From Bdellovibrio sp. CG22_combo_CG10-13_8_21_14_all_39_27 (lineage in GTDB: Bacteria; Bdellovibrionota; Bacteriovoracia; Bacteriovoracales; Bacteriovoracaceae), in contig PCTW01000016.1 of assembly GCA_002786715.1 (NCBI GenBank), positions 155,371-199,371 on the forward strand: a stretch of 44,001 bases of DNA, given 5' to 3'. A model generated the notes under the pieces. It was not told the DNA's origin, searched no databases, and saw only the letters and a list, made by a program, of their open reading frames with translations. A program made the position numbers and the translations under genes. Positions 2,642-36,779 of the stretch are shown in pieces; the first letter of the stretch is position 1; each line of letters begins with the position of its first letter.

Positions 2642-3532
2642 ATGATTATCTCTCTATTCTTTTCATTGCTTGCTCAAGTGATGGCCTCTACGCCGATCTC
2701 TGACGCTTGGGTTTCATTGGCCCTAGAAGCTGCTCATAATGCTGTTGATATGCCCGAGAGTTCAGATGAAATTAAAGAGCTTCCCGGCTATCGTTTTGAA
2801 AAGCGCTACGTTGATTCTTATACTGGTTTCCAAGCTTTTCACTACAAATGTGTCGAGGTATGTGAGTTTCAAGAACTCTACACAATCTCTGGTACTCAAA
2901 GCACTACTGGTGTTTTTGATTGGCGTGATTGGGCAACTAATATGAGCTTTGGTCTCTTTCAGTATGACACCAATGCGGCCCAAGAATTTAAACTCGATTT
3001 TTTTCGTTCAAGCCAAGTGGCTTCAGTTCTTCTCACCGGCCATTCCTTAGGCGGAATGCTTGCTCAGGCCATGTTGTATGAACTTATATTAACTAAAACT
3101 ACAGAGATTCCTGTCGTCTCAATCTTTTTTGCAGCTCCCGGAGCTTTTCAGTTAATAGAAAGAATTCATCAGCGTGATTATCCAGATTACACTTTTAATC
3201 CAATCGATGTTCTCACTTTGCCGACAATGAATTTAGCTTTTAAAAAAGATGCTGTGCCTAGAATTGGAACGCAGGTGGGAGAAACTTGGCTCTTTCCTGA
3301 TAGATATACCAAAGCAGTTAAGAACCACCATTGGATGCATTATATTCCGTGGGTTGGATCAGTGATTAAGGCCCATCTCTATCCCGCTTTTAAGGCAGCA
3401 ATAGCAGATCAAGGACTTTTAAAACTTAGTCCTTATTCCAACAGACCAATCGTTCCACCGTCTCGTCTTCGCCGAATTGGTGAAAAATGGGGCTCTTGGT
3501 GGTTGCGCATGATTTCTCGTTCGAGAGATTAA
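2642..3532 (+). CDS. secreted class 3 lipase-like alpha/beta hydrolase
   Basis: A 296-residue exported hydrolase. Residues 1-15 form a short hydrophobic signal peptide (cleavage likely after VMA). The nucleophile elbow is GHSLGGML with Ser135, the classic lipase class 3 sequence. Likely partners are Asp189 (in NPIDVL) and a His near residue 230 in the NHHWMH segment, the usual Ser-Asp-His arrangement. Paired cysteines at about 70 and 74 suggest a periplasmic or extracellular location. Family members hydrolyse triacylglycerols or other esters. No Shine-Dalgarno sequence precedes the ATG; instead an extended -10-like element ends 6 nt before it. The stop abuts, on the opposite strand, the stop of the M14-like gene, so the two genes converge without spacing. 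Confidence 0.85.
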   Translation: MIISLFFSLLAQVMASTPISDAWVSLALEAAHNAVDMPESSDEIKELPGYRFEKRYVDSYTGFQAFHYKCVEVCEFQELYTISGTQSTTGVFDWRDWATNMSFGLFQYDTNAAQEFKLDFFRSSQVASVLLTGHSLGGMLAQAMLYELILTKTTEIPVVSIFFAAPGAFQLIERIHQRDYPDYTFNPIDVLTLPTMNLAFKKDAVPRIGTQVGETWLFPDRYTKAVKNHHWMHYIPWVGSVIKAHLYPAFKAAIADQGLLKLSPYSNRPIVPPSRLRRIGEKWGSWWLRMISRSRD

Positions 3533-4234
3533 TCAACTTTCCAGTTGAATGGCGTTAATCAATAAGAAGGCACAGGCCAATTGAGTGGCCATCAAATTTT
3601 TATGGTGTGATTCTTCTTTACGAGGAACTTCACAGATAAAAACAAGTCCCTTTTTTGCAAATTGAGCAAAAGTTGATTTGTGAATATCATTTATAGCGAA
3701 CATATCTAGAAAACCTTGACCCATTTTAGCGTCGGCGATATCAGGAGAAATATCCAGACCGTAATGTTTAATGATGGTCGAAATTTCTTGGCAGATATGA
3801 TCAGGAAGTTCGTGGCTGACTGGGAAATAGCATGGCAAGACTTCTTCACAGTGAAATTCATCATGCATTGGAAAAGTGAAAACTGGATTTAAGAGATCAT
3901 TGAGATTAAGAAGAGCTGAAGTTTCTGGTCGCGGTTGTTCAATCATCCAATCAACTTCTTGATGCTGTTCTTTTTGTACCAGTTCAAGCGTTAGTCCGTC
4001 ATTGGGTTGGTCATCTATATTTAGGCAAGGGATAAAGTTCCACCGTACATTCATTTGGTGAATCAAATGATGGGGGTCTTTAAGTGCTCGCAAGAGACCG
4101 AGTAATCCTGATGCTCCAACGGCCTCACCTGGATCGGGCAATCCATAAAGAAGGACCTGTGGGGCATTCGCTTGCCCGTAGCTATAGAGTTTTATGGGAT
4201 GGCCTTTTGCCGATTTTCCAATGGTATTTATCAT
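3533..4234 (-). CDS. M14-like (zinc carboxypeptidase/deacylase fold) protein, probably longer at the N-terminus
   Basis: The region with an ordinary start encodes 233 residues. GKSAKGHPIKLYSYG followed by LYGLPDPGE resembles the start of M14 peptidases and AstE/AspA deacylases, where HxxE binds zinc. Here Asp replaces the His (DPGE). MHDEFH may hold the third ligand, and ICEVPR near the end matches the catalytic-Glu strand. The same frame stays open upstream to a stop at 4352-4354 and encodes 37 plausible residues (including EKIYPPAELFKIFDHEAQ) right behind an AGGAGG-type ribosome site overlapping the end of the dikinase gene. No ATG, GTG or TTG is present there, so a rare ATA/ATT start or a sequence error is possible. 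It is the last gene of the leftward lipid-cluster operon. Substrate unknown; an amide or ester deacylase is plausible. Confidence 0.7.
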   Translation of the reverse strand: MINTIGKSAKGHPIKLYSYGQANAPQVLLYGLPDPGEAVGASGLLGLLRALKDPHHLIHQMNVRWNFIPCLNIDDQPNDGLTLELVQKEQHQEVDWMIEQPRPETSALLNLNDLLNPVFTFPMHDEFHCEEVLPCYFPVSHELPDHICQEISTIIKHYGLDISPDIADAKMGQGFLDMFAINDIHKSTFAQFAKKGLVFICEVPRKEESHHKNLMATQLACAFLLINAIQLES

Positions 4235-4338
4235 GCAAACATCTTGTGCTTCATGGTCGAATATTTTAAATAATTCAGCTGGAGGATAAATTTTCTCAGC
4301 AAGATTTGCACATGAATTAGCTAAATCAATAAATGTTT

Positions 4339-7035
4339 TTATGACTCCTCCTCAAGAATTTCAATGAGCCCTGTTTCACCATTCATTCTAATTTTCATTC
4401 CAGTTTTCAATTTTTTAATCAGTCCTTTAACACTAACGATTGCAGGTAAACCCATTTCTCTGGCAACAATGGCCGAATGAGAGAGTAGACCGCCTCTTTC
4501 AACAATTAATGCGCTAGCACTAGGATAGAGTGGAATCCAACCTGGGTCAGTTCTGTACGTCACCAAGATTTCACCATTGAGCTCCATATTGTCCTTTGGA
4601 TCAAGGATCACTTTCACTACACCTTCAACGATACCTGGACAGCAAGGAATTCCCTTAAGCTGATTGGGCCCAAGGCTGCTCTCATCAATCTCCACCTTTT
4701 CTTCTATCGGAAAATGACGGTTCTGCCAGTAGACCAAGCCACGAGTATGAAAGCGGGGGGCAGGTTCTTCGCCTTGGGCATAAATTGCGTACTCTTCTTT
4801 TCGAAGCTGAACGACTTTTTGAAGATTTTGGATTGAATTTGTACCTTCGAGCGAGCCTTTGAGTTCATCTAGGGATAAATAAAAAATATCTTCTGGAACC
4901 ATAATTATTTTTCTTTGAGCAAAATCTCGTCCCATTCCAAAAAACATGCTGCGTACGATTCCATAAATACGTGTCCGACAGAATCGGGTATTCTCACGAT
5001 TGCGAACGGCCTTTCTTGCGTGGAAGAGTGACCAGTTGTAAAACCATTTTTTGGGGCCAGAAAGATTTTGCTTGAGTAGGTTCTCGGCGTTGTCACGAAT
5101 CTGACGTTCTCTTTCTTCATAAGTATGAAGATTCGTTTGTCCACTATTGATAAGATTTTTTAAGAAAACAAAGAGCAGCGATGGATCTTGATGCAAGTCT
5201 TTTTGTTCAAGCTTCATTTCACTCATGCAGCGAAAACCAAAGCGATCGATATAGCTTAAAACCATGCCATAGAATTCTTTATAAGATGAATGGGTAAGTG
5301 CTTCAAGGCAATGATCGCTTGAAGTTTTAAGGATGAGTTCTTTGAGTTCAGGGTGCTGGGTAACGTATCCGGCCATTTGTATGAGAACTTTTGTTGGCTC
5401 AGCGCTTTCAAGGTTGCCATTGCCGGCCATAAGATCGTTTTGAAAACTGCCACCGAGGTGACCTAGCCATTTTTCAGTTATTTTTTTAAACATTCCAAAA
5501 TGGACCATGCATAGAAAGTCGTTAATGATGGGAGCATGCCATCGCCAAAGAAGTTTCCTTTCGAGTTCCAAGTAGTCTTCATAAATAAGATCGGATGGCA
5601 TTTGAGAATAATCTTTTTTTCGAAATTGATTATAAACAGAATGGAAATAGGTCAGAAAATCATCAACTACTTTTTGAATATTAAGGTGATAATAGAAAAA
5701 TTTAATACCTGTGCGAAATTTTCGCCACTTGCCTGAATTTGAATCTTGAAAGGCCGGAGGGCGAACTCTCTCTGCTATTTCGTCCTGAAGGCTCTCATTA
5801 GTTCCCATCATGGTTTCCATGAATTTCCGATTATATTTATAACCAGGTAGGATATTCGTTAACTTGTACCAATTAAGCAGATTGTAATAAACCCTTCCAT
5901 AAAAAAGGCCTAACATATTTTTTAAAAAGTAATCCATTTCACGAATATGTTTATTGGGAACCTGAAGTATCTCACAAAACTGAACATAGACCTGATGGTA
6001 AACATAATGGGCAAAGCCAAAAGTTAAAGGCATCGTTATGCCACCGTAACTTTCGACGATATTTGAGTTATCCCAAATAAAAAGTTGTCCCTCTTTGTTG
6101 ATGACTTGAGAGGTCACGGGACGTGATTGAAGAATATAGACTTTACCCTGATGAATGGCCCATTCAACATCTTGGGGAAAACGATAAGAATCTTCAATCA
6201 CTTTTCCTAAGCGTAAAATCATGGATAATTCACCATCACTTAAGCTTGATTGATTAATCATTGATTCAGATACGGGCATTTCTTTGGTTGTTTCATTTTC
6301 AAAATCTTGAAGGAACTGGCTTTTTTTCTCGACAATTTCTCGTTGAAGAACCATTCCATTTTCTTTGCTTAAAATAAAGGTATCAGCATCAAGAGCACCA
6401 CTTACTAAACCTTCACCAACTCCAAAGACCGAATTGATGGTCATTTGGTTGGGGTCTTCCGTAATAGGGTTGCAGGTAAAAAGAACACCTGATTTTTCAG
6501 CAGGGATCATTTCTTGGAGGATAACGGCCACTTTAATATTTTGAGTTGGAAGTCCATTCTGTTGGCGATAGATGAGAGATCGTTCTGAGTACAGCGAGGC
6601 CCAGCATTCTTTTACTGCCTCAAGCATTTTATCCACGCTCTTGATATATAAGAATGAACTCAATTGTCCCGCAAAGGAATGGGCAGCGGAATCTTCATCA
6701 AGCGCTGAAGACCGAACGGCGATTAGGGGACTATGGAGTTGGTTCCAAGCCTCGACGATGAATTCTCTCACATCCGATTGAAAAGGAGATGAAGTAATGA
6801 GGTGATGAATATCGGTTGCCTTCTGTTCTGCTCCCGTATGGACGTCATCGATAATAAATTGAATTTTATCTTTTATTTTCGCGGATTCGAGAAAACGAAC
6901 AAATACACTTGGCCCAATGATATTCCATTTGGGTACTGGTAGATTATTTTGAGTTAAGAGATAAAGATTAAGTCCTTTGCCACCAGCTTCAAGTTGAGCA
7001 AAGTGACGTGTACTCTCTTTTGTTACTAACAACAT
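4339..7035 (-). CDS. ATP-dependent dikinase with rifampin-phosphotransferase-like architecture (PEP synthase superfamily)
   Basis: An 898-residue cytoplasmic enzyme. Residues 1 to about 330 are the pyruvate-phosphate-dikinase-type ATP-binding domain (EAGGKGLNL at 16-24, AVRSSALDEDS, SGVLFTCNPIT). A long, mostly helical middle part of about 450 residues follows. The swivelling phosphohistidine domain lies at the extreme C-terminus (CCPGIVEGVV, then GGLLSHSAIVAREMGLPAIV with the phospho-acceptor His853). True PEP synthase has the His domain in the middle and a PEP-binding barrel at the C-terminus; that barrel is missing here. The order matches rifampin phosphotransferase, in which the middle part binds the acceptor. 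I infer that it phosphorylates a pathway intermediate using ATP (giving AMP and phosphate), not pyruvate. Its ATG lies 3 bases beyond the UbiA-like stop codon. Confidence 0.85.
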   Translation of the reverse strand: MLLVTKESTRHFAQLEAGGKGLNLYLLTQNNLPVPKWNIIGPSVFVRFLESAKIKDKIQFIIDDVHTGAEQKATDIHHLITSSPFQSDVREFIVEAWNQLHSPLIAVRSSALDEDSAAHSFAGQLSSFLYIKSVDKMLEAVKECWASLYSERSLIYRQQNGLPTQNIKVAVILQEMIPAEKSGVLFTCNPITEDPNQMTINSVFGVGEGLVSGALDADTFILSKENGMVLQREIVEKKSQFLQDFENETTKEMPVSESMINQSSLSDGELSMILRLGKVIEDSYRFPQDVEWAIHQGKVYILQSRPVTSQVINKEGQLFIWDNSNIVESYGGITMPLTFGFAHYVYHQVYVQFCEILQVPNKHIREMDYFLKNMLGLFYGRVYYNLLNWYKLTNILPGYKYNRKFMETMMGTNESLQDEIAERVRPPAFQDSNSGKWRKFRTGIKFFYYHLNIQKVVDDFLTYFHSVYNQFRKKDYSQMPSDLIYEDYLELERKLLWRWHAPIINDFLCMVHFGMFKKITEKWLGHLGGSFQNDLMAGNGNLESAEPTKVLIQMAGYVTQHPELKELILKTSSDHCLEALTHSSYKEFYGMVLSYIDRFGFRCMSEMKLEQKDLHQDPSLLFVFLKNLINSGQTNLHTYEERERQIRDNAENLLKQNLSGPKKWFYNWSLFHARKAVRNRENTRFCRTRIYGIVRSMFFGMGRDFAQRKIIMVPEDIFYLSLDELKGSLEGTNSIQNLQKVVQLRKEEYAIYAQGEEPAPRFHTRGLVYWQNRHFPIEEKVEIDESSLGPNQLKGIPCCPGIVEGVVKVILDPKDNMELNGEILVTYRTDPGWIPLYPSASALIVERGGLLSHSAIVAREMGLPAIVSVKGLIKKLKTGMKIRMNGETGLIEILEEES

Positions 7036-7038
7036 AAA

Positions 7039-7983
7039 TTAATTCCATTGCCTTTCTATATAGTTGAAAAGTATTCCGCCATAAACGATAACGATATAAA
7101 GTGAAGAATACATTCTTATGAGTTTTCCTGAACGAGGTTTTGTGTCGAAAAAAAAGATCAAGCCTATAGCTAAAAGAAGTAAAAGATTAATTCCCAAAAA
7201 TGTTTGCATAAGGAAGAAATTTATCGTGCTGATGTAGAGGCAAGCTAGTGATAACAAAATAGCGTGACCAAAGACTAAGGCGAGAGCACCACCTTTACCC
7301 CAGATACTCGAATAAGTATCAACACCAGGTCTCTCTTCAATTGGTTGATAGACCTTTCTACCAAGTTCAAAAATATTGAATAATAACCAGCTCATTAAGG
7401 CAAAATAGTAGAAATCTGCATCAAGGTTCCAGAAATAAAATCTGCCCATGGCCGAAAAAATGGCAAGGCTTAAAAGAAAAGTCACAACCGTGTGAGATGT
7501 TGCATAGGTTGTTAAATGTGGGCGGATCAATTCACCAATAAAAAATTCTTTATACATAAGTAGTGAATAGCCAATAGCAATGAGAATTCCTACCAGACCT
7601 GGAAGTCCACAACTGGCAAAAAAGATAATTTCCAATATGATACAGTTCTCAATTGCACGCTTGAGATCAAAATGTTGAATAAGTCCCCTCGGAAGTGGAC
7701 GATTTGGATTTTTTGCGAGATCGACTTCGTAATCCTTAATTTCATCATAACAACGAAGCTTAAAAAAGAAACACGTCGTTCCGAGAGTAACCCAAAGAAT
7801 TTGGATAGGCTCAAGAATTATGGTACGAGAGGATTGGGCAACAAAAAAATGGGCCGCCACAAACATGACAATCATGATGAGATGACTTAAGGGTTCAAAG
7901 CGTTCATGAAAAAAGTCCATCCAGCGCTGGATTTGTTCTTTTCTTAAATCCTTGTAATTATCCATTCCTAGTGGTTGATTCAA
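7039..7983 (-). CDS. UbiA-superfamily membrane prenyltransferase
   Basis: A 314-residue integral membrane protein with about 7-9 hydrophobic segments. The first Asp-rich motif is CYDEIKDYEVD (Asp80, Asp84, Asp88) followed by NPNRPLPRG, and a second Asp motif is GVDTYSSIWG. Both are the Mg-diphosphate sites of UbiA enzymes, which transfer a polyprenyl chain to an aromatic or other acceptor in the membrane. The spacing in the first motif (D-x3-D-x3-D) differs from the common NDxxDxxxD, so the acceptor may be unusual. The start is a TTG 5 nt behind AAGGAG and overlaps the stop codon of the AMP-ligase gene, implying translational coupling. The operon context places it in the same lipid pathway as the ligase and dikinase. 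Confidence 0.85.
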   Translation of the reverse strand: MNQPLGMDNYKDLRKEQIQRWMDFFHERFEPLSHLIMIVMFVAAHFFVAQSSRTIILEPIQILWVTLGTTCFFFKLRCYDEIKDYEVDLAKNPNRPLPRGLIQHFDLKRAIENCIILEIIFFASCGLPGLVGILIAIGYSLLMYKEFFIGELIRPHLTTYATSHTVVTFLLSLAIFSAMGRFYFWNLDADFYYFALMSWLLFNIFELGRKVYQPIEERPGVDTYSSIWGKGGALALVFGHAILLSLACLYISTINFFLMQTFLGINLLLLLAIGLIFFFDTKPRSGKLIRMYSSLYIVIVYGGILFNYIERQWN

Positions 7984-10376
7984 TTTTTCTCCTTGACCAA
8001 TTGATCGCGTAAAACATTGTATTCAACTTTGCTATGATGTCGGGGATCCATGGGGATTTCGTTGTGAAAGATAATTTTATCGGCAACGATATTATTCTTT
8101 TGCAGGATGCGCTTTATTTCTTTTGAGTAGAGCTGTTTTTGCTCATCACTGGGTTCCTCTTTGCAATTATAAACCGCCCAGGTGCTTTCTCCCAATTTTG
8201 GATCAGGCATGCCTAGAAAAGCACAGTGGTGGATAAAAGGGAGTTTTGCCATGATGACTTCTGCGCGAACTGGAAAAAGATATGTACCATCTCTATTGAT
8301 GGCATTGTGAACTCGTCCGACAAGCCAAAGATTTCCTTCTTCATCGATTCTTCCGAGATCTCCAGTTCGATGCCAGACGACACCGTTTTCATCACGAATC
8401 TTTGCTCTGAAAAAGGCTTCTTTATTATTATAATATCCTTGGCAAACATGCTCGCCGGCCACAATGATTTCACCGACTGAACCCTCTGGAACCAAAAGGT
8501 CTGTCCAATCTTCTTCTGAATTGATCAGGATATTATCTTTATTAATTTTTAGGTAACGAACACTTAGACCTTCATCAAATTTTCCTACGTTCACACCTTC
8601 ATCTACCCATTCAGGATCTTGCTGATTGCGCTCTTTAAGCATTTCTTTTGCTTCAATATGAGTCATCGGTTCTACTTCTGTTGAGCCGTAGAGAACGAGG
8701 ATTTCTGCTTTGGGTGCAACTTTTTTCATTTGGGCAACATCGTCATTTGAGACGGGAGCTCCACCAGTGATTATTCTTCGTAGATCATTCAAAACGATAT
8801 CTTCTTGGAGGCAGTAACGATAAAGGCTTCTGAGGAGGGAAGGGGAAAGGGTAGTGCATGTTGTTTTAGTTTGCTTTATTTGAGCGATTAAAATGAGTGC
8901 ATCTTTGTCATTAGGAGTTCCAACATCAATCGCCGGTATAACTGTTGTGACACCAGCCGCAAGGTTATTGAGCGAAAAAATGGGAAAGACGGGAAGATCA
9001 ACATCACCTTGATCATAGGGAAGGTGACGATTGAGAGCGTAATGTTGTGCCGCCAAGAATCGATGACCTCGGTCAGCTCCTTTTGGTGTCCCGGAAGAAC
9101 CGGTCGTAAAGGTGATAAGCGCTGTATGATTGCGATCGACAGCAGTGACAGGTGCCGATGCGGGGGTCTTCATGAGATTTTCAAGTGTCGCTGAATAGCT
9201 TTGTTCGTGTGGACCAACTACAATTTTAAGGGGAATTGTCGCTATTGAATTTTCTTGGCCTAAATAAAGAAAGGCCTTCTCAAGAGAGATCATGATCTTG
9301 GCCTCAACCGCATGAGCAGCCTTTCCCATTTGATCTCTTCTGGCCCAAGAATCTAAAAACACTGCTATGGCTCCAATTTTTTGAAGAGCAAACATCGCTG
9401 CGTATAATTGAAGCGACATAGGGATAAAAACAATGGCCCGATCTCCTTTTTGTATTCCTAATTTTACAAAACCTGCAGCAATACGATCAACGAGACCATC
9501 GAGTTCTTTCACTGTTACTGAATCATGAGGAAGTGGATCTTTAAGGTCAAAGCTCCATTGGGCCAAGTTCTGGGGAGAGACCCAGGTAAGTATGGGACGA
9601 TTCGGAATATTTTCTAAATGTTTTTCTAAGAAGGAATAAACATTATTTTTAACATGGGATTCAGGATAATAACCCAGAGGATATTCAGATTCTGGGTTCT
9701 GATTAATAATTGTTCTGAGAATATTTGCTAATTCAAGTGAATGAGTCCACGGTATCGCGTGACCTGCATCGCGAATAATTTGATCATCAAATTGAATATA
9801 TTTCTTCAATTGCGAGATTTGTTGATCCCCTTCAGAAGTTTGGTCACGATCTCCACGTATAACAATAATTCGAATCTTCTTTTCCTTAATCTTAGAAAGA
9901 GCTTGCTCAAAAGCAGTTTTATTATAATTTTTTTCAAAGAGTGCTGACTTGATGACTTGAGGTTTAACCAATTCTCTTTTTATACTTGCGTAATGGCTTG
10001 GTATTTCCAAAGGGTAAGACGATTCTTCAAGCATTTTATCAATCGCTTTAGGGGCCATTTTGCTTAAGATCATATCTCCAATAAGGGGTGAGCCCAGGAC
10101 TATTTTTGCCAGTGGAGAAATAGCTTTTTTGGGAAAGAGGTAGGGCGCTATCAGGATAACAGCGTTGGTTTCACTTTCTGCCGCATCCATTAAAGCTGCC
10201 ATACAACCAAAAGAGTAGCCCATTATAATTTGAAAATTTTTCTTCTGATGAGTTTTGCTTTTTCGATAACGATCAACGGTCAACCAATTTAACTCTGGCA
10301 ATTGCTTAATCAAAAGATCAAAATCGTGTATTGTTCCAGGAGAGCCATGGTGGGCAAGTATGGTCGTGGTCTTCAT
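7980..10376 (-). CDS. fused serine alpha/beta-hydrolase and OleC-like AMP-dependent acyl ligase
   Basis: A 798-residue two-domain enzyme. Residues 1-225 form a small alpha/beta-hydrolase with GYSFG (Ser55), an acid in RGDRD (176 or 178) and DAGH (His206). Residues about 245-798 form an ANL adenylating domain: TFTTGSSGTPKG near 422-433, YGSTEVEP at 563-570, HRTGDLG at 669-675, and C-terminal DPRHHSK with the catalytic lysine near 787. The ligase resembles OleC (beta-lactone synthetase of olefin synthesis) and fatty-acyl-AMP ligases. OleBC fusions are known, but OleB has an Asp nucleophile, whereas this hydrolase has Ser and so is more like a thioesterase or acyltransferase. No OleA thiolase is nearby. 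Its ATG overlaps the formyltransferase stop (ATGA). Confidence 0.87.
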   Translation of the reverse strand: MKTTTILAHHGSPGTIHDFDLLIKQLPELNWLTVDRYRKSKTHQKKNFQIIMGYSFGCMAALMDAAESETNAVILIAPYLFPKKAISPLAKIVLGSPLIGDMILSKMAPKAIDKMLEESSYPLEIPSHYASIKRELVKPQVIKSALFEKNYNKTAFEQALSKIKEKKIRIIVIRGDRDQTSEGDQQISQLKKYIQFDDQIIRDAGHAIPWTHSLELANILRTIINQNPESEYPLGYYPESHVKNNVYSFLEKHLENIPNRPILTWVSPQNLAQWSFDLKDPLPHDSVTVKELDGLVDRIAAGFVKLGIQKGDRAIVFIPMSLQLYAAMFALQKIGAIAVFLDSWARRDQMGKAAHAVEAKIMISLEKAFLYLGQENSIATIPLKIVVGPHEQSYSATLENLMKTPASAPVTAVDRNHTALITFTTGSSGTPKGADRGHRFLAAQHYALNRHLPYDQGDVDLPVFPIFSLNNLAAGVTTVIPAIDVGTPNDKDALILIAQIKQTKTTCTTLSPSLLRSLYRYCLQEDIVLNDLRRIITGGAPVSNDDVAQMKKVAPKAEILVLYGSTEVEPMTHIEAKEMLKERNQQDPEWVDEGVNVGKFDEGLSVRYLKINKDNILINSEEDWTDLLVPEGSVGEIIVAGEHVCQGYYNNKEAFFRAKIRDENGVVWHRTGDLGRIDEEGNLWLVGRVHNAINRDGTYLFPVRAEVIMAKLPFIHHCAFLGMPDPKLGESTWAVYNCKEEPSDEQKQLYSKEIKRILQKNNIVADKIIFHNEIPMDPRHHSKVEYNVLRDQLVKEKN

Positions 10377-11119
10377 AAAATAAAACCCTGATTTAAAAAT
10401 TTTTTAATTTGTGAGCGCGTTGGATTTTTTGTATAGAGAGGTTTTGCGCAATGATTCGATTGACCTTCGGGAAGTTGTCCATGTTTTTTAATTTCTGCAA
10501 TCAATTGACTTAACACTTCACCTTCTTTTTTTGCTGCCATATCAAGATACAAAGGATAATCCTTCATATCGCGAGAAACACTCACTCTCTTGTAAACTAC
10601 ACCTGCATCAATTTTACTCGTCATATGATGAATGGAAAAGCCTGCATCACGTTGCTCAGTTAGGGCATAAAGGTCACATAGCGTACCTCTGTACTCTGGT
10701 AAAAGACCGTGGTGAATATTGAGGCAACCCCATTTTGGTGCTTTTAGAATTTCATTTTTATAAATGCAACGAGTGCGAGCATTAATGACGAGGTCTATCT
10801 GTTGATCTTTGATAAATTGAATGGCCTCTGGATCATTCATGCTTTCAAAAGACTTAACCCAACGGCCATTTTTGAGAAAGAGTTTTTCATTTTGGGCCTT
10901 TGGAATACTTAGTAAATTTTGAACGAGATGCTTAGTGATCATTTTGGCGCCAATTAAGCTTAAGCCTAGTAGGGATTTCAATATCTGAAAGTTGACATTT
11001 TTGAGTAAAATGAGTCCAACGACATCATGATCAGAGTCATGTTCAAGCAGAGTTCTGTAAAAAGAACGATAATTATCTGGAACGTAAGTCAGTTGACTAC
11101 TAACAATAACCACTTTCAT
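10373..11119 (-). CDS. formyltransferase-family protein
   Basis: A 248-residue cytoplasmic protein of the purN/fmt-type formyltransferase fold. The catalytic set is present: Asn134 and His136 in LNIHHGLLPEYRG, and Asp171 in SKIDAGVVY. Family members transfer a formyl group from 10-formyl-tetrahydrofolate to an amine, for example on GAR, Met-tRNA or amino sugars. Residues 40-100 lack the usual purN features, and the protein has no C-terminal tRNA-binding domain, so it is neither PurN nor Fmt. First gene of the leftward cluster operon, overlapping the ligase by ATGA, it probably formylates an amino intermediate of that pathway. No Shine-Dalgarno sequence precedes the ATG. GATAAT lies 7 nt upstream and a perfect TATAAT at 11150-11155, so the transcript start is unclear. 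Confidence 0.83.
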   Translation of the reverse strand: MKVVIVSSQLTYVPDNYRSFYRTLLEHDSDHDVVGLILLKNVNFQILKSLLGLSLIGAKMITKHLVQNLLSIPKAQNEKLFLKNGRWVKSFESMNDPEAIQFIKDQQIDLVINARTRCIYKNEILKAPKWGCLNIHHGLLPEYRGTLCDLYALTEQRDAGFSIHHMTSKIDAGVVYKRVSVSRDMKDYPLYLDMAAKKEGEVLSQLIAEIKKHGQLPEGQSNHCAKPLYTKNPTRSQIKKFLNQGFIL

Positions 11120-11306
11120 GCTTTTTATTATCTCGTTAAAGGCTGGATAATTATAGGGATTTTAAGTGGTTAAAGGACCTTTTTTTGGATTTTTTTGTTG
11201 AAAAACTGGTCACTCTGCAAAATCTACAGACTTGGGCCACAAATCCCAGCGTCTTCTGACCAAAACGGTATAATAATGACAACTTATCACTTTAGAAAGG
11301 AACTCA
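11120..11306. promoter_or_regulatory. divergent promoter region of the lipid cluster
   Basis: This 187-base gap separates the two divergent operons. On the minus strand there are two -10-like boxes, TATAAT at 11155-11150 and GATAAT at 11132-11127. On the plus strand there is a perfect TATAAT at 11269-11274, followed by a short leader with AAAGGAA before the lipid-kinase ATG. Good -35 boxes are not evident on either side, which may mean activator dependence. No clear operator palindrome is visible. Confidence 0.55.
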
Positions 11307-12275
11307 ATGGAAACCATCAGCGTTTACATGAACCACAGAGCTAGTAATACTGGACTCAACTATTGGAAGAATCGAATTGGTTCTTCACTTTTTCGAAGTG
11401 AGATAAATTTTAGAAATCCTACCAGTCTAGAGGATTTAAAAATTCAGTTAGAGAAAGATATCGCCAATAAAGTCGACACCATTGTTTCCGTTGGTGGTGA
11501 TGGTACCGTTAACACTCTTATTCAACATTTGGCCCATACAGATATTGGCCTTTTGGTTATACCTGGTGGTACCGCAAATGATTTAGCGAACGAATTGGGT
11601 TTAGAGAAAAATTCAAGAAAGGTCATTCAATACGTAAGACAGAAAAATGTTAAAAGCATTGATTTAATCAAGGTTAATGACAGACTTTTCGCCACTAATG
11701 GTGGATTTGGTTTAGGTGGAGATGTTGCTAAGAAAATTAACGAGATGAGAAAGAAGTATCCTCGCTTTAAGGATCTGATGAAAATTACGGGCAAGAAGAT
11801 CTATTCTCTCTTCGTTGCTCAAGAAATGTTATCACTTAAGAGCAAAATGTATCATCTCAATATCAATTCAAAAGAATTGAGCGGTCAATATCGTTGTCAC
11901 GCACTATTGATTAATAACCAACCCGTAATTGCGGGTACTTTTCACGTTGCTCCTCAAACGCGAAACGCTGATGGCAAATTTAATGTAACAATATTGACTC
12001 ATACCAATCGTTTTGACTTAGTTCGCACTTTGATTCAAGTTTCTCAAGGGATTGCGATCGAGGGCGACCCTCACTTTATTAGTTTTGAAACTGACTCACT
12101 AGAAGTTGAAAACCTTGAGCCGCAGCGTAAGATCTCATTCTTTGGAGATGGAGAAGTCTTCCAAGAGAATGAACAAAAATGGAAAATCTCTGTTGTTCCA
12201 CAGTCTCTCAAAGTATATTCTAAGGATACTGCGGTCGATATGGTCGATCTGGTTAATGAGGTTTCCTTGTCATGA
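11307..12275 (+). CDS. diacylglycerol-kinase-type lipid kinase
   Basis: A 322-residue protein of the DagK/YegS/sphingosine-kinase family. The nucleotide-binding GGDGT is at residues 63-67 and GGTAND at 87-92, both intact, followed by the family's beta-sandwich C-terminal domain (NGGFGLGGDV, then RNADGKFNV). These enzymes phosphorylate a lipid hydroxyl, such as diacylglycerol or a long-chain base, at the inner membrane face. The ATG at 11307 has a good AAAGGAA site. Its stop overlaps the next gene's start as ATGA, so it heads the rightward four-gene operon of the lipid cluster. The substrate could be a cluster-specific lipid or ordinary diacylglycerol; sequence alone does not decide. Confidence 0.9.
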   Translation: METISVYMNHRASNTGLNYWKNRIGSSLFRSEINFRNPTSLEDLKIQLEKDIANKVDTIVSVGGDGTVNTLIQHLAHTDIGLLVIPGGTANDLANELGLEKNSRKVIQYVRQKNVKSIDLIKVNDRLFATNGGFGLGGDVAKKINEMRKKYPRFKDLMKITGKKIYSLFVAQEMLSLKSKMYHLNINSKELSGQYRCHALLINNQPVIAGTFHVAPQTRNADGKFNVTILTHTNRFDLVRTLIQVSQGIAIEGDPHFISFETDSLEVENLEPQRKISFFGDGEVFQENEQKWKISVVPQSLKVYSKDTAVDMVDLVNEVSLS

Positions 12276-13330
12276 AAATTTTAGTGACTGGCTGTACTGG
12301 TTTTTTAGGGCCAGAATTGCTAGAACATTTCAAACTTCAAACGCATCATCATTTCTATCTTGTTACTCGCCAGCCGGAAAAGAATTATATTTCTCTCGCG
12401 ATTAAAGATTTTCCTCATATTGAATTGGTATCTGGCGATATCACTAGACCCGATGTTCTTATTGATTCCGAGCTTATGAATAAGCTCATTGATGAAGTCG
12501 AGATAATTCTTCATGCAGCAGCTTATTATGATCTTGCTGGTTCATACTCCTCTTGTTTTATGTACAACGTGGTTGGAACACAGAACATGATATTTCTCGC
12601 TAAGCGAATGAAGAAATTAAAGTACTTTCATTATGTCAGTACTGTTGCAGTGGCAGGGGACTATTCTGAAACGATGCCAGAGAAATTTCTTGAACTTGGT
12701 CAAAAATACAGCAACCATTACGCAAAAACTAAGGCCGATGCTGAAAAAATGGTGAGAGAGGCGATTGCCTATTTGCCACAAATTCGCATTTATCGTCTCG
12801 GTATCTTAATTGGTAATTCTGTTGATGGGGAAATGGCCAAGTTGGATGGACCTTATTATTTTACTCATGCTATTTCTCAACTGCTGCAAGATATGCCTTT
12901 GATCAAGAGATTACCTGTTTTAATAATGCCTTTTCATGCCAATTCGTTATTGCCAATCATTCCTGTCGACTATGCTGCTAAATTCATTACTCACGCAATG
13001 GAGCACCCAAGTGAAGATGAAAAGTGTGTCACTTATCATGTTATCAGTGATCAATGCCCTAATTTAGAAGGCTTGCTTCAGGACATTTTGCAGGCCTTTG
13101 GTCTAAAAATGAAAGTCATTGGTTTCCCAAGACATCAGATGATAGGACCAGTCTTTAAAGCGATGAAGTTACCACCTGAATTAATTGATTACATGTATGC
13201 GACTACGACTTATGATATACGTAATAGAAATCAGGATTATTCGGATATTCCTCTCGGTCGTTATCACGACTACAAAGAAGCCTTTATTAAAGGGGCCTTA
13301 GAAAGAGAGAAATCGCTAGAGGCTAAATGA
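12272..13330 (+). CDS. extended SDR family NAD(P)-dependent oxidoreductase (thioester-reductase / 3-beta-HSD like)
   Basis: A 352-residue cytoplasmic enzyme. The Rossmann motif VTGCTGFLG is at residues 5-13, typical of extended SDRs and NAD-binding-4 thioester reductases. HYVSTVAV supplies the catalytic Ser/Thr strand and HYAKTK supplies Tyr and Lys (YxxxK). The C-terminal third varies, as is normal for substrate-binding parts. Likely reactions are reduction of a thioester or keto-lipid or oxidation of a sterol-like alcohol. OleD of olefin synthesis is also an extended SDR, so that role was considered, but no OleA is present. ATGA overlaps at both ends couple it to the lipid kinase and the AAR-like protein. 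Confidence 0.85.
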   Translation: MKILVTGCTGFLGPELLEHFKLQTHHHFYLVTRQPEKNYISLAIKDFPHIELVSGDITRPDVLIDSELMNKLIDEVEIILHAAAYYDLAGSYSSCFMYNVVGTQNMIFLAKRMKKLKYFHYVSTVAVAGDYSETMPEKFLELGQKYSNHYAKTKADAEKMVREAIAYLPQIRIYRLGILIGNSVDGEMAKLDGPYYFTHAISQLLQDMPLIKRLPVLIMPFHANSLLPIIPVDYAAKFITHAMEHPSEDEKCVTYHVISDQCPNLEGLLQDILQAFGLKMKVIGFPRHQMIGPVFKAMKLPPELIDYMYATTTYDIRNRNQDYSDIPLGRYHDYKEAFIKGALEREKSLEAK

Positions 13331-15384
13331 AACACATCCTCTCTATCGTCTATTCACAAGACCAAGTTCATTTTGATGACATCATTTTTTTTAATGGTGA
13401 GAATATTCGTCTTACACAATATGGTGTGAATTTTAATCAAGATGCAGCGCTTGGGCTTATTGATCGCTACGATGGTGAAGTTGATGTGATTGCTTTTTCA
13501 GGCTTACCGCCGGCAATTCGCTATAAAGGCGGACTTTTTATTCATCCGACTGTCGAAAAACTAAAAGGGCGAGCGAAGCATTCCATGATTGTCGATGGGC
13601 AAACTTTAAAGAATGTTTACATTCCTTGGACGCTTCGTCGTTTTCACCAAGAAGTGCCTCATTTTTTCTCACGCAAAAAAGTATCTTTCTATTCTGGAGC
13701 TTTGAACAAACCTCTTCTTGAAGTCTTGAGCGAGTTTGATGTTAAATTTTGCTTAAGTGATCCTTATTTTTTTGCAAAATTACCTTTCAATTTAAAAAGT
13801 GCTGAACAATTGGATTATTTCATCAAGTTTTCTGCTCCCTTTTTTAAAAATGTCGATCTTAAAAAAACCTATCTTTCAGATTTTGATAATAGGCGAGTAC
13901 CATTGCCACGAAATTTAGCAGAATTCTTTGAGGGCGACATCTTTGTCTCTAATGAAACGACACTTCGCTTATTAGACCTTGAGCACTTGCAAGGTAAATC
14001 ACTTCTCCTTGATTTTTGCAGTCCTGATCTTATGGCAAGACTCAAAAAAGTACAGGTACGCGATGTTCTCGTGTGTATGCCGCAACTAATTGACCACCCT
14101 GGAATTAATTTTGGTGTACTCGAAGCTGTGTTACAGCTTTTTAGAAAAGATCAACAACGCCTTACTGAAAATGATGTGATCAAATGGATTGATGATTTTG
14201 ATATTAAAACGCAATTTAATCGCATTGAGGCCAATCCTGGATCTATGCAATCTAAATTTGCCTTCATTGTACATCCTCTTGGGGCCAGTCATATTTTCAA
14301 GCATCCCATGCTTAAATTTCTAAAACCCTTTTCAAAACCGATTGAGCCATTGGCCGAAGATTTAGTTTCACGAACGCCTGGTTTTTTCTATGGAACCATT
14401 AAAGGCATACGATCTGAAAAGAATGGTAAGGAAGTTGAAGGGCTTATTTACACTGTTACTGAAACTCCACGAAAATTGTTAGAAAAAAATCCAGCAACTA
14501 TTTACAATAAGCTCATTGGCCTATGTCGTAAGGCCTCTGATGCCGGAGCAGGCATTATTGGTCTTGGGGCCTATACTAAAATCGTTGGTGATGCCGGCAT
14601 TACGGTTGCTAATCAATCACCGATTCCTGTAACAACTGGAAATTCACTCTCGGCTTGCGCTACATTGTGGGCGGCCAAGTTTGCTTTAGATAAAATAGGT
14701 TTTGTTAAACGTGACGAAAATAAAATGTATAAAGGGAAATGCATGGTTATTGGAGCCACGGGGTCTATCGGTGCTGTGAGCGCTAAGGTCTTGGCCCAGC
14801 AATGGGATCATCTCGTTTTGGTAGCTCCACGAGCTTACAAACTTCTTGAACTTCGAGAAGAAATTCGTGCGCTTGCTCCACACTGTATTGTCGATGTTGC
14901 GACGACTCCTGAAGGTCATGCTATTGATTGTGATTTGATTATTACAACGACATCCTCACGTGGCGAAAAGATTCTTGATATCATGAGCGTTCGTCCAGGT
15001 TGTGTTATTTGCGATGTTTCCCGCCCTTTTGATATAAAGGAAGAAGACGCCATTAAGCGTCCAGACGTCATGGTTATTGCGAGTGGAGAAGTTCAATTGC
15101 CAGGTCATGTTCAAATGAATGTTGATTTAGGACTTGAAGGTAAGATTGTCTATGCTTGCTTGGCCGAGACTGCACTACTTGCGATGGAAGGGCGTCTCGA
15201 ATGCTTTACACTTGGTCGAAATATCTCATTTGAAAAAGTGCTAGAAATTGATCGTATGGCCCGTGAGCATGGTGTTAGACTTTCCTGTATAATGGGTCAT
15301 AATGGATTTATAACAGATGAAGAGTTTGAGCTCTGCAAGGAACATGCAGTGAAATCGCTTAAGACGTGGAATCCTGGAGATTAG
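13327..15384 (+). CDS. large protein with C-terminal acyl-ACP reductase (AAR)-like domain
   Basis: A 685-residue protein. From about residue 305 to the end it matches the plan of cyanobacterial long-chain acyl-ACP reductase: a TTGNSLSA block, the NADPH motif GATGSIG at 476-482, and YACLAETALLAMEG, where Cys611 lines up with the cysteine that carries the acyl group in AAR, followed by LGRNISFEKVLEI and REHG. AAR reduces acyl-ACP/CoA to fatty aldehyde. Residues 1 to about 300 are unlike anything I recognise; they look soluble and folded, without signal peptide or membrane segments. Cyanobacterial AAR is about 340 residues, so this is a fusion. No aldehyde-deformylating oxygenase lies nearby, so the aldehyde probably feeds another product. 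Coupled to the SDR by ATGA and 3 bases from the BtaA-like gene. Confidence 0.8.
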   Translation: MKHILSIVYSQDQVHFDDIIFFNGENIRLTQYGVNFNQDAALGLIDRYDGEVDVIAFSGLPPAIRYKGGLFIHPTVEKLKGRAKHSMIVDGQTLKNVYIPWTLRRFHQEVPHFFSRKKVSFYSGALNKPLLEVLSEFDVKFCLSDPYFFAKLPFNLKSAEQLDYFIKFSAPFFKNVDLKKTYLSDFDNRRVPLPRNLAEFFEGDIFVSNETTLRLLDLEHLQGKSLLLDFCSPDLMARLKKVQVRDVLVCMPQLIDHPGINFGVLEAVLQLFRKDQQRLTENDVIKWIDDFDIKTQFNRIEANPGSMQSKFAFIVHPLGASHIFKHPMLKFLKPFSKPIEPLAEDLVSRTPGFFYGTIKGIRSEKNGKEVEGLIYTVTETPRKLLEKNPATIYNKLIGLCRKASDAGAGIIGLGAYTKIVGDAGITVANQSPIPVTTGNSLSACATLWAAKFALDKIGFVKRDENKMYKGKCMVIGATGSIGAVSAKVLAQQWDHLVLVAPRAYKLLELREEIRALAPHCIVDVATTPEGHAIDCDLIITTTSSRGEKILDIMSVRPGCVICDVSRPFDIKEEDAIKRPDVMVIASGEVQLPGHVQMNVDLGLEGKIVYACLAETALLAMEGRLECFTLGRNISFEKVLEIDRMAREHGVRLSCIMGHNGFITDEEFELCKEHAVKSLKTWNPGD

Positions 15385-15387
15385 TCC

Positions 15388-16488
15388 ATGACAAAAAAGT
15401 ATTTCCAAGCACTCAATTATACTTTAGGAAATGAAGATACTCGCTTCGAAGTGGAGCTTCTCAAACGTGTAAATAAGAAGCATCTTTTATCTATTGCAGG
15501 ATGTGGCTCGCGAGTTCTTCCACTCCTTGCAACTTATCCAAAAACTGTCACGATACTAGATATTTCAGAACCTCAATTATTGTTGACTCGATTGAGACTT
15601 GAAACAATTCGCCAATTTGAACATGAAGATTTCTTATGTTTTTGGGGATTTCCTCCTTATGCAGCCTATGATTTTGCTGAGAAAAGAAAGAAACTATTTT
15701 TCGAAATGGATCTTGACCGTGAGATACGCGATTTCTTTTTTCAAATATTAAGTGAAGTTCATTGGGAGAGTTTACTTTATCTAGGAGGCTGGGAGAGGAC
15801 TTTTGTTGCTTTGAGTAAAGTGGTCCAAGCTCTCTTGGGAAGTCACGGACAGAAGCTTTTCTCGTTCACACAAATTCACGAACAACGACAATATGTCGAG
15901 AATCACTTTCCTCATCATCGCTGGAAGGCCATTATCTTTGGTCTTGGCAATCGCGCCGTCTTTAATGCACTTCTTTATAAGGGCGACTTTATCAAAAAGA
16001 ACGTGAGTGAATCCCATTTTGAATATTATTTTCAGGGACTCGAACGACTAATGACAACTCAGCTGGCCCGTGAAAGCTTTTTTCTTAATCTTTGCTTTTT
16101 TGGGAAGATCATTCACCCCGATGGAAATACAATTGAAGCTGAAAAAGAAAATTTTAATCTCTGTAAAGAGGCTTTGCTCGAATCGCCTCAAATATCTTTT
16201 TTGCAACACGATCTTCATAGTGCAATTAATACTCTAGGTGATGAGCAGATTGATTTTGCGTCTTTGTCAGATGTTCCTTCCTATTTTTCTGGAGATGAAG
16301 AGCGAAATTTTTTGCAGCATTTAAGACCGAAAATGATGAATGATGGGATAGTGGTTTTGCGCTATTATCTACGTGAAGCCATTGCCGACGAAAGTGGTTT
16401 TGTTGATATCACTCCACAGTTCTCAGATCTAATTGCTCAAGAAAGAGTGCAGATGTACCGAATCAAAGTCCTTCAAAAGCAAAATTAA
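15388..16488 (+). CDS. DUF3419 / BtaA-like 3-amino-3-carboxypropyl transferase
   Basis: A 366-residue protein with a SAM-binding Rossmann start (LLSIAGCGSRVLPLL at 33-47, then VTILDISEPQL at 54-64) and later FGLGNRAVFNALL. This is the layout of the DUF3419 family, whose characterised member BtaA moves the 3-amino-3-carboxypropyl group of SAM onto diacylglycerol to form the homoserine head of betaine lipids. A second SAM-type segment (ISFLQHDLHSAINTL, then FASLSDVPSYF) also fits the family. BtaB, the N-methyltransferase that completes betaine lipid, is not adjacent, so the head group may stay unmethylated or receive another modification. Last gene of the rightward cluster operon, starting 3 bases after the AAR-like stop. 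The exact acceptor is inference. Confidence 0.75.
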   Translation: MTKKYFQALNYTLGNEDTRFEVELLKRVNKKHLLSIAGCGSRVLPLLATYPKTVTILDISEPQLLLTRLRLETIRQFEHEDFLCFWGFPPYAAYDFAEKRKKLFFEMDLDREIRDFFFQILSEVHWESLLYLGGWERTFVALSKVVQALLGSHGQKLFSFTQIHEQRQYVENHFPHHRWKAIIFGLGNRAVFNALLYKGDFIKKNVSESHFEYYFQGLERLMTTQLARESFFLNLCFFGKIIHPDGNTIEAEKENFNLCKEALLESPQISFLQHDLHSAINTLGDEQIDFASLSDVPSYFSGDEERNFLQHLRPKMMNDGIVVLRYYLREAIADESGFVDITPQFSDLIAQERVQMYRIKVLQKQN

Positions 16489-16512
16489 CCCATGTCCTTT
16501 TGTTGATTGCTT

Positions 16513-16527
16513 TGGCATAATATTCTC
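16513..16527 (+). promoter_or_regulatory. putative extended -10 promoter of a leaderless HD-GYP regulator mRNA
   Basis: TGG followed by CATAAT (16516-16521), then exactly 6 nt to the ATG at 16528, with no Shine-Dalgarno sequence. This supports 16528 as the start in preference to the in-frame TTG at 16507, which lies upstream of the -10 box. Confidence 0.5.
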
Positions 16528-17883
16528 ATGCTTAGAATCCTACTCGTTGACGATAATGAAGACCTTCTTGAGGTTTTAACTGTGCTTCTTTCACTAGAAG
16601 CAAAGTTTGATATTGTTGCCTGTTCAAATGTCAGTGAGGCCATGAATCACTTGAAAGAGCGTAGTGATATCGATGCTATTATTTCAGATTATAATCTTCA
16701 AGATGGTAACGGAGCTGAGCTCTATGCTTACAATCAAACTCAAAATAAATTACCCTTCGCCCTTTTTTCTGCCTACTTGGCCGAGGATTGTGAAGGGCTC
16801 GATACTTTAACCTCTGACAACCCACTTAATCGTTTTATTCGTAAAAGTGTTGAAGAGAAAAAATTATTCGAATTTATTCTAGACATAGAACGTTCTAAAA
16901 TTTCCAATGCCAAAAATGATGATTCTTCAGATCAAAAATATCATCGCTTACCGGTTTCTTTCTTAAAGAAGTTTGAATTTAAAAGCATTGATTACTTTGT
17001 AAAACTTAAAGAAGATCATTTCGTGAAGATCTCGAACGCTGGCGAGGGAATTTCTTCTCAGTTAGATTCTTACGAGAGTAAAAATGTTCATTTTCTTTTT
17101 GTTAAAATTGAAGATCTTGGAGCATTGTTTTCTGAAGTTGGAAGAATATTACAACTTTCTAAAAATGAAAGCGCAACGCTTGAAGAAGAAGTTGTTACAA
17201 TTTCAAATATTCATTTTGAAATCTCTCTTGTGGCACTAAAGCATCTTGGCTTAAGAAGAGAGCACATTGAATTTATTAATAAATCCCTTGCAACTTCTAT
17301 TGAAAAATTAAGTAAGAATACTGAGTTTAAGGGAATTCTGGAGAGATTAAATCAAAATGAGAGTTTGTTTAAAAACCATTCTTTACTCACTCTTTATTTA
17401 GCAACCCCGATGATCTATGCCTTAGGTTGGAATTCACCATCCACAATTGAGAGACTTGTTCATGCCGCTCTTTTTCACGATATGGGTTTAGCTCATCCTC
17501 ATCTTTGTGAATTTGAGAATCAAGAATTCACAAATGGATTGCTTAGTACCGAAGACGAGAAAGAACTTAAATCTCATCCTGTTATTGCGGCCGAGTTATT
17601 AAAGAAATTTGACTTTATTCATCTCGAAACGATAAAAATTGTACAAGAACATCATGAGAAGCCTGATGGTAAGGGTTATCCTTCTGGGCTTAGTGCTCAG
17701 CATGTCTCAGCTTTGGGTGCAGCTTTTATCATTGCTCATGATTTTGCTCATTCACTTTTAAAATCAAGATATGATTTGAAAGCTTTTAAATTTTATCTAG
17801 CTGAGAAAAAAGGTTTTTATCAAATAGGACAATACAAACGTTGCATTGAAGCCTTTTTGCAAATTTCCAGTCAGATTAAATAA
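16528..17883 (+). CDS. response regulator with HD-GYP c-di-GMP phosphodiesterase domain
   Basis: From the ATG at 16528 the protein has 451 residues. Residues 1-125 form a receiver domain (ILLVDDNED with the acidic pair at 8-9, phospho-acceptor Asp54 in SDYNL, Lys106 in the switch region). Residues 140-280 are a linker domain that I do not recognise. Residues 280-451 form an HD-GYP domain with LFHDMG (His317, Asp318), HHE at 375-377 and DGKGYP at 380-385, all intact. HD-GYP proteins hydrolyse c-di-GMP to GMP; phosphorylation of the receiver should control this. No histidine kinase is adjacent. It lies 39 bases behind the lipid cluster on the same strand, but its own putative promoter suggests separate control. 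Confidence 0.9.
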   Translation: MLRILLVDDNEDLLEVLTVLLSLEAKFDIVACSNVSEAMNHLKERSDIDAIISDYNLQDGNGAELYAYNQTQNKLPFALFSAYLAEDCEGLDTLTSDNPLNRFIRKSVEEKKLFEFILDIERSKISNAKNDDSSDQKYHRLPVSFLKKFEFKSIDYFVKLKEDHFVKISNAGEGISSQLDSYESKNVHFLFVKIEDLGALFSEVGRILQLSKNESATLEEEVVTISNIHFEISLVALKHLGLRREHIEFINKSLATSIEKLSKNTEFKGILERLNQNESLFKNHSLLTLYLATPMIYALGWNSPSTIERLVHAALFHDMGLAHPHLCEFENQEFTNGLLSTEDEKELKSHPVIAAELLKKFDFIHLETIKIVQEHHEKPDGKGYPSGLSAQHVSALGAAFIIAHDFAHSLLKSRYDLKAFKFYLAEKKGFYQIGQYKRCIEAFLQISSQIK

Positions 17884-36092: not shown

Positions 36093-36779
36093 ATGAATCA
36101 ACTATTCGATTGGACCCAATATCCTCGACTTTATTGCTTTCCAGATAAGTGCAATTGCGAGCCGATGCGTGCTGGAGTCTTAATTATTCAGCCAACTGCA
36201 GTTCTTTCGAGCGTTCCTTTTATATTGATTGGTCTTTGGGCATGGATGAAATCTAAAGATTTCGAGTTTAAACTTTTGGCCGCTTGTTACATCATTTTAG
36301 GATTTTCAAGCATCTTCTTGCATAGTTCATACATCTTAGTTTCTCGTTACTTTGATTTTGGGTCTATTTTCGCCATTATGTCCTGGACCTTGGTCTATCT
36401 TTATCATAGTCGAACAAATCATTTTAAATTTTTCTTATGGTTTCTTGGTGTGACTTTTTTTATGACTTCCATGCTTAAGATTTTTCCTAAACAGGCGATT
36501 GAAGCTTTTGTTGTCTGGGCAATCGTAACCATTATTTTCTCTTTTGCAAGAGTGCAATCTTTTTTGCTCAATCATCAACAAAAGAAAGATCTCTATTTGT
36601 CGATTTTCTTTCTTTTCATTGGCTCAGTTTCTTTTAAACTCGATGAACTCCGCTACTTTTGTTTTCCGGAATGGAATCTCTACGGTCACAGCGTTTGGCA
36701 TTTATTAGTTGGTGTTTCGTTGATCTTTCATTTTCGCTTTTTTCAGCAGATACATCAGCATCGCAAATCAGTGCAATAA
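36093..36779 (+). CDS. CREST-superfamily (alkaline ceramidase-like) membrane hydrolase
   Basis: A 228-residue protein with about seven hydrophobic segments. The family motifs are all present: Cys22-Glu23 before the first segment, Ser72/73 and His77 in FSSIFLHSS, Asp88 in RYFDFGS, and the HxxxH pair His199 and His203 in YGHSVWHLL near the end. In alkaline ceramidases these residues bind zinc and catalyse amide hydrolysis. The bacterial members have various or unknown substrates; ceramide, or another amide- or ester-linked lipid, is plausible. No Shine-Dalgarno sequence is evident; TATGAT lies 9 nt before the ATG. The 3' end overlaps the convergent metzincin gene by 12 bases. Confidence 0.75.
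   Translation: MNQLFDWTQYPRLYCFPDKCNCEPMRAGVLIIQPTAVLSSVPFILIGLWAWMKSKDFEFKLLAACYIILGFSSIFLHSSYILVSRYFDFGSIFAIMSWTLVYLYHSRTNHFKFFLWFLGVTFFMTSMLKIFPKQAIEAFVVWAIVTIIFSFARVQSFLLNHQQKKDLYLSIFFLFIGSVSFKLDELRYFCFPEWNLYGHSVWHLLVGVSLIFHFRFFQQIHQHRKSVQ

Follow-up and report, generated by a model that had tools for sequence, protein, structure and literature searches.

Eight genes of the window (g2 to g9; positions 4339–16488) are linked in related genomes far beyond chance, and we tentatively read them, at slightly less than an even chance, as encoding the synthesis of an unusual aminolipid of the envelope, or of a lipid-like amphiphile, with outer-membrane export in at least some lineages. The window is the whole stretch of 44,001 nucleotides that was analyzed; it belongs to a draft genome of 4.08 Mb whose nearest named relatives are Halobacteriovorax/Bacteriovoracaceae. 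We infer all substrates, the order of the steps and the product class, for which a modified lipid is the likeliest.

The ORF list placed the eight genes in two divergent, tightly packed runs, g5-g4-g3-g2 on the minus strand and g6-g7-g8-g9 on the plus strand. Exact 4-base ATGA overlaps were found at four gene pairs (g3/g4, g4/g5, g6/g7 and g7/g8), in agreement with the tight packing described in the sequence-only reading, and two pairs (g2/g3 and g8/g9) were spaced by 3 bases. Both promoters are presumed to lie inside the 187-base divergent gap; a promoter scan yielded no match in this gap and no excess over shuffled sequences. Family assignments rest on sequence searches of Pfam, NCBIfam and the PDB (Table 1), and the expected catalytic residues were kept in alignments of every gene from g2 to g9. 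The sequence-only reading had proposed nine genes in this divergent arrangement, each with a family. Eight of them stood, with their ORFs, coordinates, families and two runs; the ninth, an "M14-like" protein (g1, 3533–4234), was rejected as a member of the unit, since it showed no Pfam match at E 0.1, no PDB match at E 5 and no homologue in 38 other genomes, many of them cluster carriers, and was separated from g2 by 104 bases. Just 3' of g9, a response regulator with an HD domain is encoded at 16507–17883; proteins weakly similar to it were near the cluster in 3 of the best 80 of 251 loci, and one was also beside a stand-alone copy of the g8 N-terminal domain (L046).

Table 1. Features of the eight-gene unit (window positions) and stand-alone copies of the g8 N-terminal domain (locus positions)
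Feature	Position	Strand	Basis
g2, PEP-synthase-like dikinase (ATP-grasp, middle region, phospho-histidine domain; rifampin-phosphotransferase architecture)	4339–7035	-	PF01326, PF00391, NF004881
g3, divergent UbiA-family membrane transferase, TTG start	7039–7983	-	PRK13592, motifs, PF01040 of relatives
g4, fusion of N-terminal serine alpha/beta hydrolase (residues ~1–230) and ANL adenylate-forming ligase (~280–790)	7980–10376	-	PF00501, motifs
g5, N-formyltransferase	10373–11119	-	PF00551, PDB matches, intact triad
Divergent intergenic region, 187 bases between the g5 and g6 start codons	11120–11306	.	ORF positions
g6, YegS/DAGK-type lipid kinase	11307–12275	+	PF00781, PF19279, GGDGT
g7, extended SDR of the NAD_binding_4 (fatty acyl/thioester reductase) kind	12272–13330	+	PF07993, PRK07201
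g8, whole, AAR fusion	13327–15384	+	ORF list, Pfam/NCBIfam, structure matches
g8 N-terminal domain, residues 1–305, degenerate acyl-ACP-reductase fold	13327–14241	+	AlphaFold model, PDB fold matches
g8 C-terminal domain, residues 306–685, acyl thioester reductase of AAR/PigE type	14242–15384	+	fold, Cys611
g9, DUF3419/BtaA-like putative SAM 3-amino-3-carboxypropyl transferase	15388–16488	+	PF11899, GxGxR
Stand-alone N-domain copies	L048:10980–11918; L046:10592–11545; L047:10887–11843		

When 84,980 species genomes were scanned with the g8 alignment, 251 relatives were obtained, and the best 80 loci, many of them cut by contig ends, were read. Among these best 80 of 251, g6 was found in 66, g7 in 67, g9 in 53, the ligase in 45, g3 in 41 and g2 in 39; g6-g7-g8 were adjacent in about 67, and g2, g3 and the ligase occurred jointly in 35. 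Full-length g8 was present in 16 of 59 related genomes, most of which had the complete set of eight, arranged divergently as in the window, at 30–66% identity. It was accompanied by g2 in 15 of the 16 (Fisher P = 6e-8) and by g9 in all 16 (P = 4e-11), both P values ignoring shared ancestry. The cluster was found in Bacteriovoracaceae, Oligoflexia- and Silvanigrellales-type genomes, which are predatory Bdellovibrionota. Gene order varied (divergent, co-directional or split) while the set was retained in many genera: L104 and L105 carried a single co-directional run 6-7-8-9-5-4-3-2; in L080, L083 and L088, a ligase-UbiA fusion and g2 came after 6-7-8; and g9 was reversed in L076 and L081. Retention of the set through such rearrangement indicates selection on the set. 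Thus the genes were linked rather than scattered in related genomes, which favors a functional unit, the order itself being variable. The two runs, g6-g9 and g5-g4-g3-g2, could instead be independent operons that merely stand side by side, as would fit the genomes or stretches in which a half occurs singly (L069, L070, L106 and L107; L151 and L152) and genome G002, in which the halves are more than 1 Mb apart. Both halves are kept in G002, however, so that co-occurrence outlasts the loss of linkage, several lineages hold both halves in differing orders, and g9 accompanies either half; we consider two unrelated operons quite improbable. In Marinobacter, g8 occurred alone. In Haliea (L119, 1150–5367), the gene after a g8 homologue encodes a full-length PRK07201-like fatty acyl reductase of 686 aa, identified by eye.

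Two types of cluster were distinguished in the best 80 of 251 loci. A formyltransferase was encoded in 27 loci and a GNAT acetyltransferase in 17, and none of these 44 had both; such mutual exclusion is expected if the two enzymes are alternative caps for one amine. The exchange of formyltransferase for GNAT went along with exchange of the ligase and UbiA, and the joint change of all three suggests that they share an amine-bearing intermediate as substrate. The hydrolase part of g4 was present only with the formyltransferase (18 of 18 complete loci, none with GNAT). With regard to the type of N-acyltransferase, a P450 was found only with GNAT (9 vs. 0). A beta-lactamase-fold gene or a P450 was found in type II clusters, and the ligase was fused to UbiA in ten loci. 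The cultured Bacteriovorax sp. BSW11_IV (L075) carries a type I cluster in full. Three loci (L060, L063 and L066) combined a g2 of the window type (59–62% identity) with a ligase and UbiA of the other type (25–32%) and a GNAT. In genome G004, where no g9 was found, GNAT, P450, dikinase and UbiA genes accompany one for a TamH-like transaminase-AAR protein; with the transaminase in place of g9, a source of amine is present either way.

The UbiA-dikinase pair was the most persistent unit, being adjacent even where most other genes were missing (L155, L156, L157, L159 and L162). The dikinase g2 matched PF01326 (270 bits) and PF00391 (77.5 bits), and His853 in LLSHSA, GGK18-20 and VRSS107-110 were conserved. 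An identity as PEP synthase was rejected because the PEP/pyruvate-binding barrel domain was not reported by Pfam at E 0.1, although g2 passed NF004881 (1072.8 vs. a cut-off of 883). A rifampin resistance enzyme (344 vs. 999) and a prodigiosin ligase (PigC, 362.6 vs. 1300) were likewise rejected, and the RedH score (366.1) was below its cut-off of 1350. Like rifampin phosphotransferase, PigC and RedH, g2 has ATP-grasp and phospho-histidine domains without the pyruvate-binding barrel, and its domain architecture agrees with that of rifampin phosphotransferase; unlike them, it scores well below all three cut-offs and is nearly always beside a UbiA-like gene. That partner, g3, had no Pfam match itself, whereas its relatives matched PF01040 at 30.9 and 43.9 bits; it matched NCBIfam PRK13592 at 41.6 bits, with weak likeness to GGGP geranylgeranyltransferase. 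The first Asp-rich UbiA motif (DExKDxxxD, 80–88) and RPLxRG (95–100) were conserved. In the UbiA superfamily, the second motif is also Asp-rich; g3 lacks it and has ExxRK (206–210) in that position, as placed by eye.

The pair has further neighbors in relatives. In L162 (genome G019, 8039–12250), UbiA, a CarS-like homologue of CDP-archaeol synthase (40.6 bits vs. a cut-off of 148; Pfam 21.9 vs. 22) and the dikinase are consecutive, and in L151 (G012), an HMG-CoA-reductase/kinase fusion stands beside GNAT-UbiA. In L152 (G011, 3356–16100), UbiA and a GNAT-like gene adjoin phosphonate genes (PEP mutase, TPP decarboxylase and Fe-ADH), and the same stretch has a ketosynthase and a PlsC-like ORF (by eye), then DUF3419 and the dikinase, making it a possible phosphonolipid cluster. 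ICMT-like methyltransferases are near the pair in L155. The CarS-like, phosphonate and PlsC-like genes beside the pair support the modified-lipid reading. The archaeal DGGGP synthase is a UbiA-type enzyme that attaches prenyl chains, and the cluster might similarly make an isoprenoid membrane lipid: the substrate of UbiA would then be a true prenyl chain, and a second chain or a phosphate would come from the reductases and kinase. The CarS-like and HMG-CoA-reductase neighbors, the conserved first motif and RPLxRG and the likeness of g3 to GGGP geranylgeranyltransferase are in keeping with this, but the two neighbors each occurred in a single case, the conserved core lacks a prenyl synthase, and the window cluster differs from an archaeal-type DGGGP synthase with CarS in having no CarS, in its second motif (ExxRK) and in pairing UbiA with a dikinase. 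We regard an isoprenoid product as improbable. A plasmid of the alphaproteobacterium Roseinatronobacter sp. S2 (L134) resembles the window in carrying UbiA-dikinase-DUF3419-GNAT-AMP-ligase in one run and differs in lacking AAR, SDR and the DAGK-type kinase and in having an extra membrane protein. Identification of this membrane protein as a phytol/dolichol kinase was rejected, as the resemblance was by eye only and HMM support was absent.

The C-terminal half of g8 aligned with cyanobacterial AAR (6jzy) at Z 35.7 and 2.8 A over 327 residues (VIA-align), and its catalytic residue, Cys611, was invariant in alignments; both the fold and the catalytic Cys are those of an AAR. The score for long-chain acyl-ACP reductase TIGR04058 was below the cut-off (50.2 vs. 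449.7), and the nearest relative in both PDB and NCBIfam was PigE (8.4e-26). The PigE match covered the reductase part only, and no aminotransferase was matched in g8 by Pfam or NCBIfam; a transaminase-reductase fusion of the PigE/TamH kind was seen only in the L160 relative. Fold searches with full-length g8 matched the C-terminal half only, and the N-terminal domain was folded separately. Its AlphaFold model (pLDDT 91) had AAR and carmabin TAD as the best PDB fold matches (Z 10.7–11.7; next unrelated fold 9.3). The domain lacks the GATGSIG loop, and in 50 sequences Cys was not among the most frequent residues at the inferred catalytic position. The predicted structure alone supports a tandem of two AAR folds in g8 (sequence profile comparison of the halves not significant; probability 1.1%, E 0.049), and the first of the two domains is probably inactive. 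Hence, the "AAR-like reductase fusion" noted earlier held for the C-terminal half, and its partner is now read as an AAR fold that lacks the catalytic Cys. Compared with cyanobacterial AAR and PigE/TamH, g8 shares the fold and catalytic Cys of its C-terminal half and differs by the degenerate domain in front and by the lack of a transaminase. Stand-alone copies of the N-terminal domain (312–318 aa) were present in three genomes, including the source genome, with inconsistent neighbors.

PigE and TamH likewise belong to clusters that involve a fatty chain (PMC8341465, PMC9594044), and PigE reduces a 3-acetyloctanoyl thioester (PMC8341465). Production of a 2-enal by g8, which had been premised on PigE acting on a 2-octenoyl thioester, was dropped because of the latter result. 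The main rival to the envelope lipid is a secreted or surface amphiphile like tambjamine or prodiginine, in which the g8 aldehyde would be joined to an amine partner by a PigC-like condensation through g2, with ATP activating a carbonyl, and decorated by N-formylation or N-acetylation and a P450. The closeness of g8 to PigE, the scores of g2 to the PigC and RedH models, the TamH-like fusion with a dikinase in G004 (TamH: PMC9594044) and a P450 in 12 of the best 80 of 251 loci are all in line with such a product. The same g2 scores lie far under the PigC and RedH cut-offs, however, the core lacks bipyrrole and aminotransferase genes, and the LolA/ABC and CarS-like partners are more suggestive of envelope lipids. 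On balance, a tambjamine- or prodiginine-like product appears unlikely, though it comes ahead of the isoprenoid lipid and the two independent operons.

The ligase part of g4 matched PF00501 at 150 bits with its motifs conserved (TGsSGxPKG, YGstE, GD672 and GR687), and the hydrolase part had a Ser55-Asp178-His206 triad and a GYSxG motif, conserved in 26 sequences. OleBC fusions exist in other bacteria, and activity has been reported for an OleA from the relative Halobacteriovorax marinus (PMC7064751). An Ole-type pathway for an olefin or another hydrocarbon, with g4 as an OleBC fusion, would be consistent with these fusions, with the OleC-like score of the ligase (246 bits) and with the weak OleD likeness of g7 (51–53 bits). 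In the window cluster, however, the ligase was below the OleC cut-offs (246.4 vs. 900 and 233.5 vs. 850), and no OleA thiolase was found among the cluster ORFs or conserved neighbors. The nucleophile of OleB is Asp, and g4 has Ser instead. Moreover, a separate, complete oleA-oleB-oleC-oleD-like run was found on contig C7 of the same genome (L165:3607–8090), with ORFs of 346, 299, 546 and 324 aa named by eye except for OleC, and with an HDWGG Asp nucleophile in the second; ORFs for a ketosynthase, an ACP and an FAD-dependent oxidoreductase, also named by eye, stand before the run. Because of the Ser nucleophile, the missing OleA and the separate ole set, the olefin pathway was rejected as mostly refuted and highly improbable. 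The resemblance to OleABCD is confined to the fusion of an OleC-like ligase with an alpha/beta hydrolase, plus an SDR: the "OleC-like ligase/hydrolase fusion" of the sequence-only reading stood as a fusion, not as an olefin enzyme.

The remaining families were clear. The g5 protein matched PF00551 (47.2 bits vs. a cut-off of 26.1) and, in the PDB, ArnA, Fmt and sugar N-formyltransferases, with the formyltransferase triad N134/H136/D171 conserved. The g6 protein matched PF00781 (64.4 vs. 23.6) and PF19279 (51 bits), and the lipid kinase motif GGDGT (63–67) was conserved in 66 sequences. In g7 (PF07993, 131 bits; PRK07201, 184 bits; thioester reductase domain, 111 bits), Y150xxxK154 and GxxGxxG were conserved. 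The g9 protein matched PF11899 (107 bits vs. 28.2), and the SAM motif GxGxR (38–42), as in DUF3419/BtaA proteins, was conserved in 52 sequences; aminocarboxypropyl transfer is presumed from this similarity. The likeness to the BtaA/BtaB betaine lipid pathway is in this DUF3419 protein and its presumed reaction, whereas no BtaB N-methyltransferase was found in the cluster or among conserved neighbors, and an N-formyl- or acetyltransferase is in its place. Among plasmids, g9 had its nearest relative (37%) in Deefgea piscis (L135:13580–18100), beside an iron-containing redox enzyme and SpeD.

In the proposed pathway, g8 would reduce an acyl-ACP or acyl-CoA thioester to a fatty aldehyde via Cys611 and NAD(P)H, g7 would turn the aldehyde into a fatty alcohol, and g6 would phosphorylate a lipid hydroxyl. 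The 3-amino-3-carboxypropyl group of SAM might be moved by g9 onto a lipid hydroxyl (or amine), and the resulting amine would be formylated by g5 or, in the other cluster type, acylated by the GNAT acyltransferase. A carboxylate would be adenylated by g4, g3 would perform a membrane-embedded transfer of prenyl or alkyl type, and g2 could relay an ATP phosphate through His853 to a hydroxyl or carbonyl. The putative product would have an N-capped homoserine-type head and a reduced fatty chain. A more specific claim, that this is a new lipid class in which the chain reduced by the tandem AAR is handled like a prenyl group by UbiA and the dikinase and the homoserine-type head is N-formylated or N-acetylated, is doubtful, and we rate it no higher than the isoprenoid lipid; we know of no precedent for UbiA chemistry on a saturated alkyl chain.

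LolCDE/LolA-like, MacB/FtsX-type ABC and outer-membrane genes adjoin some clusters, and these neighbors favor an envelope product. With the CarS-like, phosphonate and PlsC-like neighbors, they make a lipid with a fatty aldehyde-derived part and an amino-acid-like head, as suggested in the sequence-only reading, the likeliest class, the product itself being putative. Against the envelope lipid, the export genes adjoin only a minority of loci (ABC permease beside 14 and LolA-like beside 10 of the best 80 of 251), and the conserved core lacks a BtaB-type N-methyltransferase and a glycerol-lipid acyltransferase. The P450 or beta-lactamase-fold gene of type II clusters fits a secreted metabolite equally, and dikinases of the g2 type also serve non-lipid products, as in PigC, RedH and rifampin phosphotransferase.

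Searches of open-access full texts, a corpus with most subscription journals outside it, for the gene combination, DUF3419 in natural products and Bdellovibrionota lipids returned nothing describing the cluster, in accordance with the sequence-only reading, whose author knew of no described pathway with this set. Each enzyme belongs to a known family; as far as the open-access literature shows, there is no description of the set and its two types, of the coupling between UbiA and the dikinase, or of the tandem AAR. An envelope lipid, if that is the product, would represent a new lipid class, would mark these predators chemically and could bear on envelope survival in or on prey. The UbiA-dikinase pairing and the inactive-looking AAR domain before an active one offer testable enzymology.

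Elsewhere in the window, an AstE/AspA-type (succinylglutamate desuccinylase-like) protein is encoded at 27963–29126 beside lysine-pathway genes, and a small membrane protein at 36093–36779 showed weak similarity to ceramidase (24.8 bits vs. a cut-off of 32.5).
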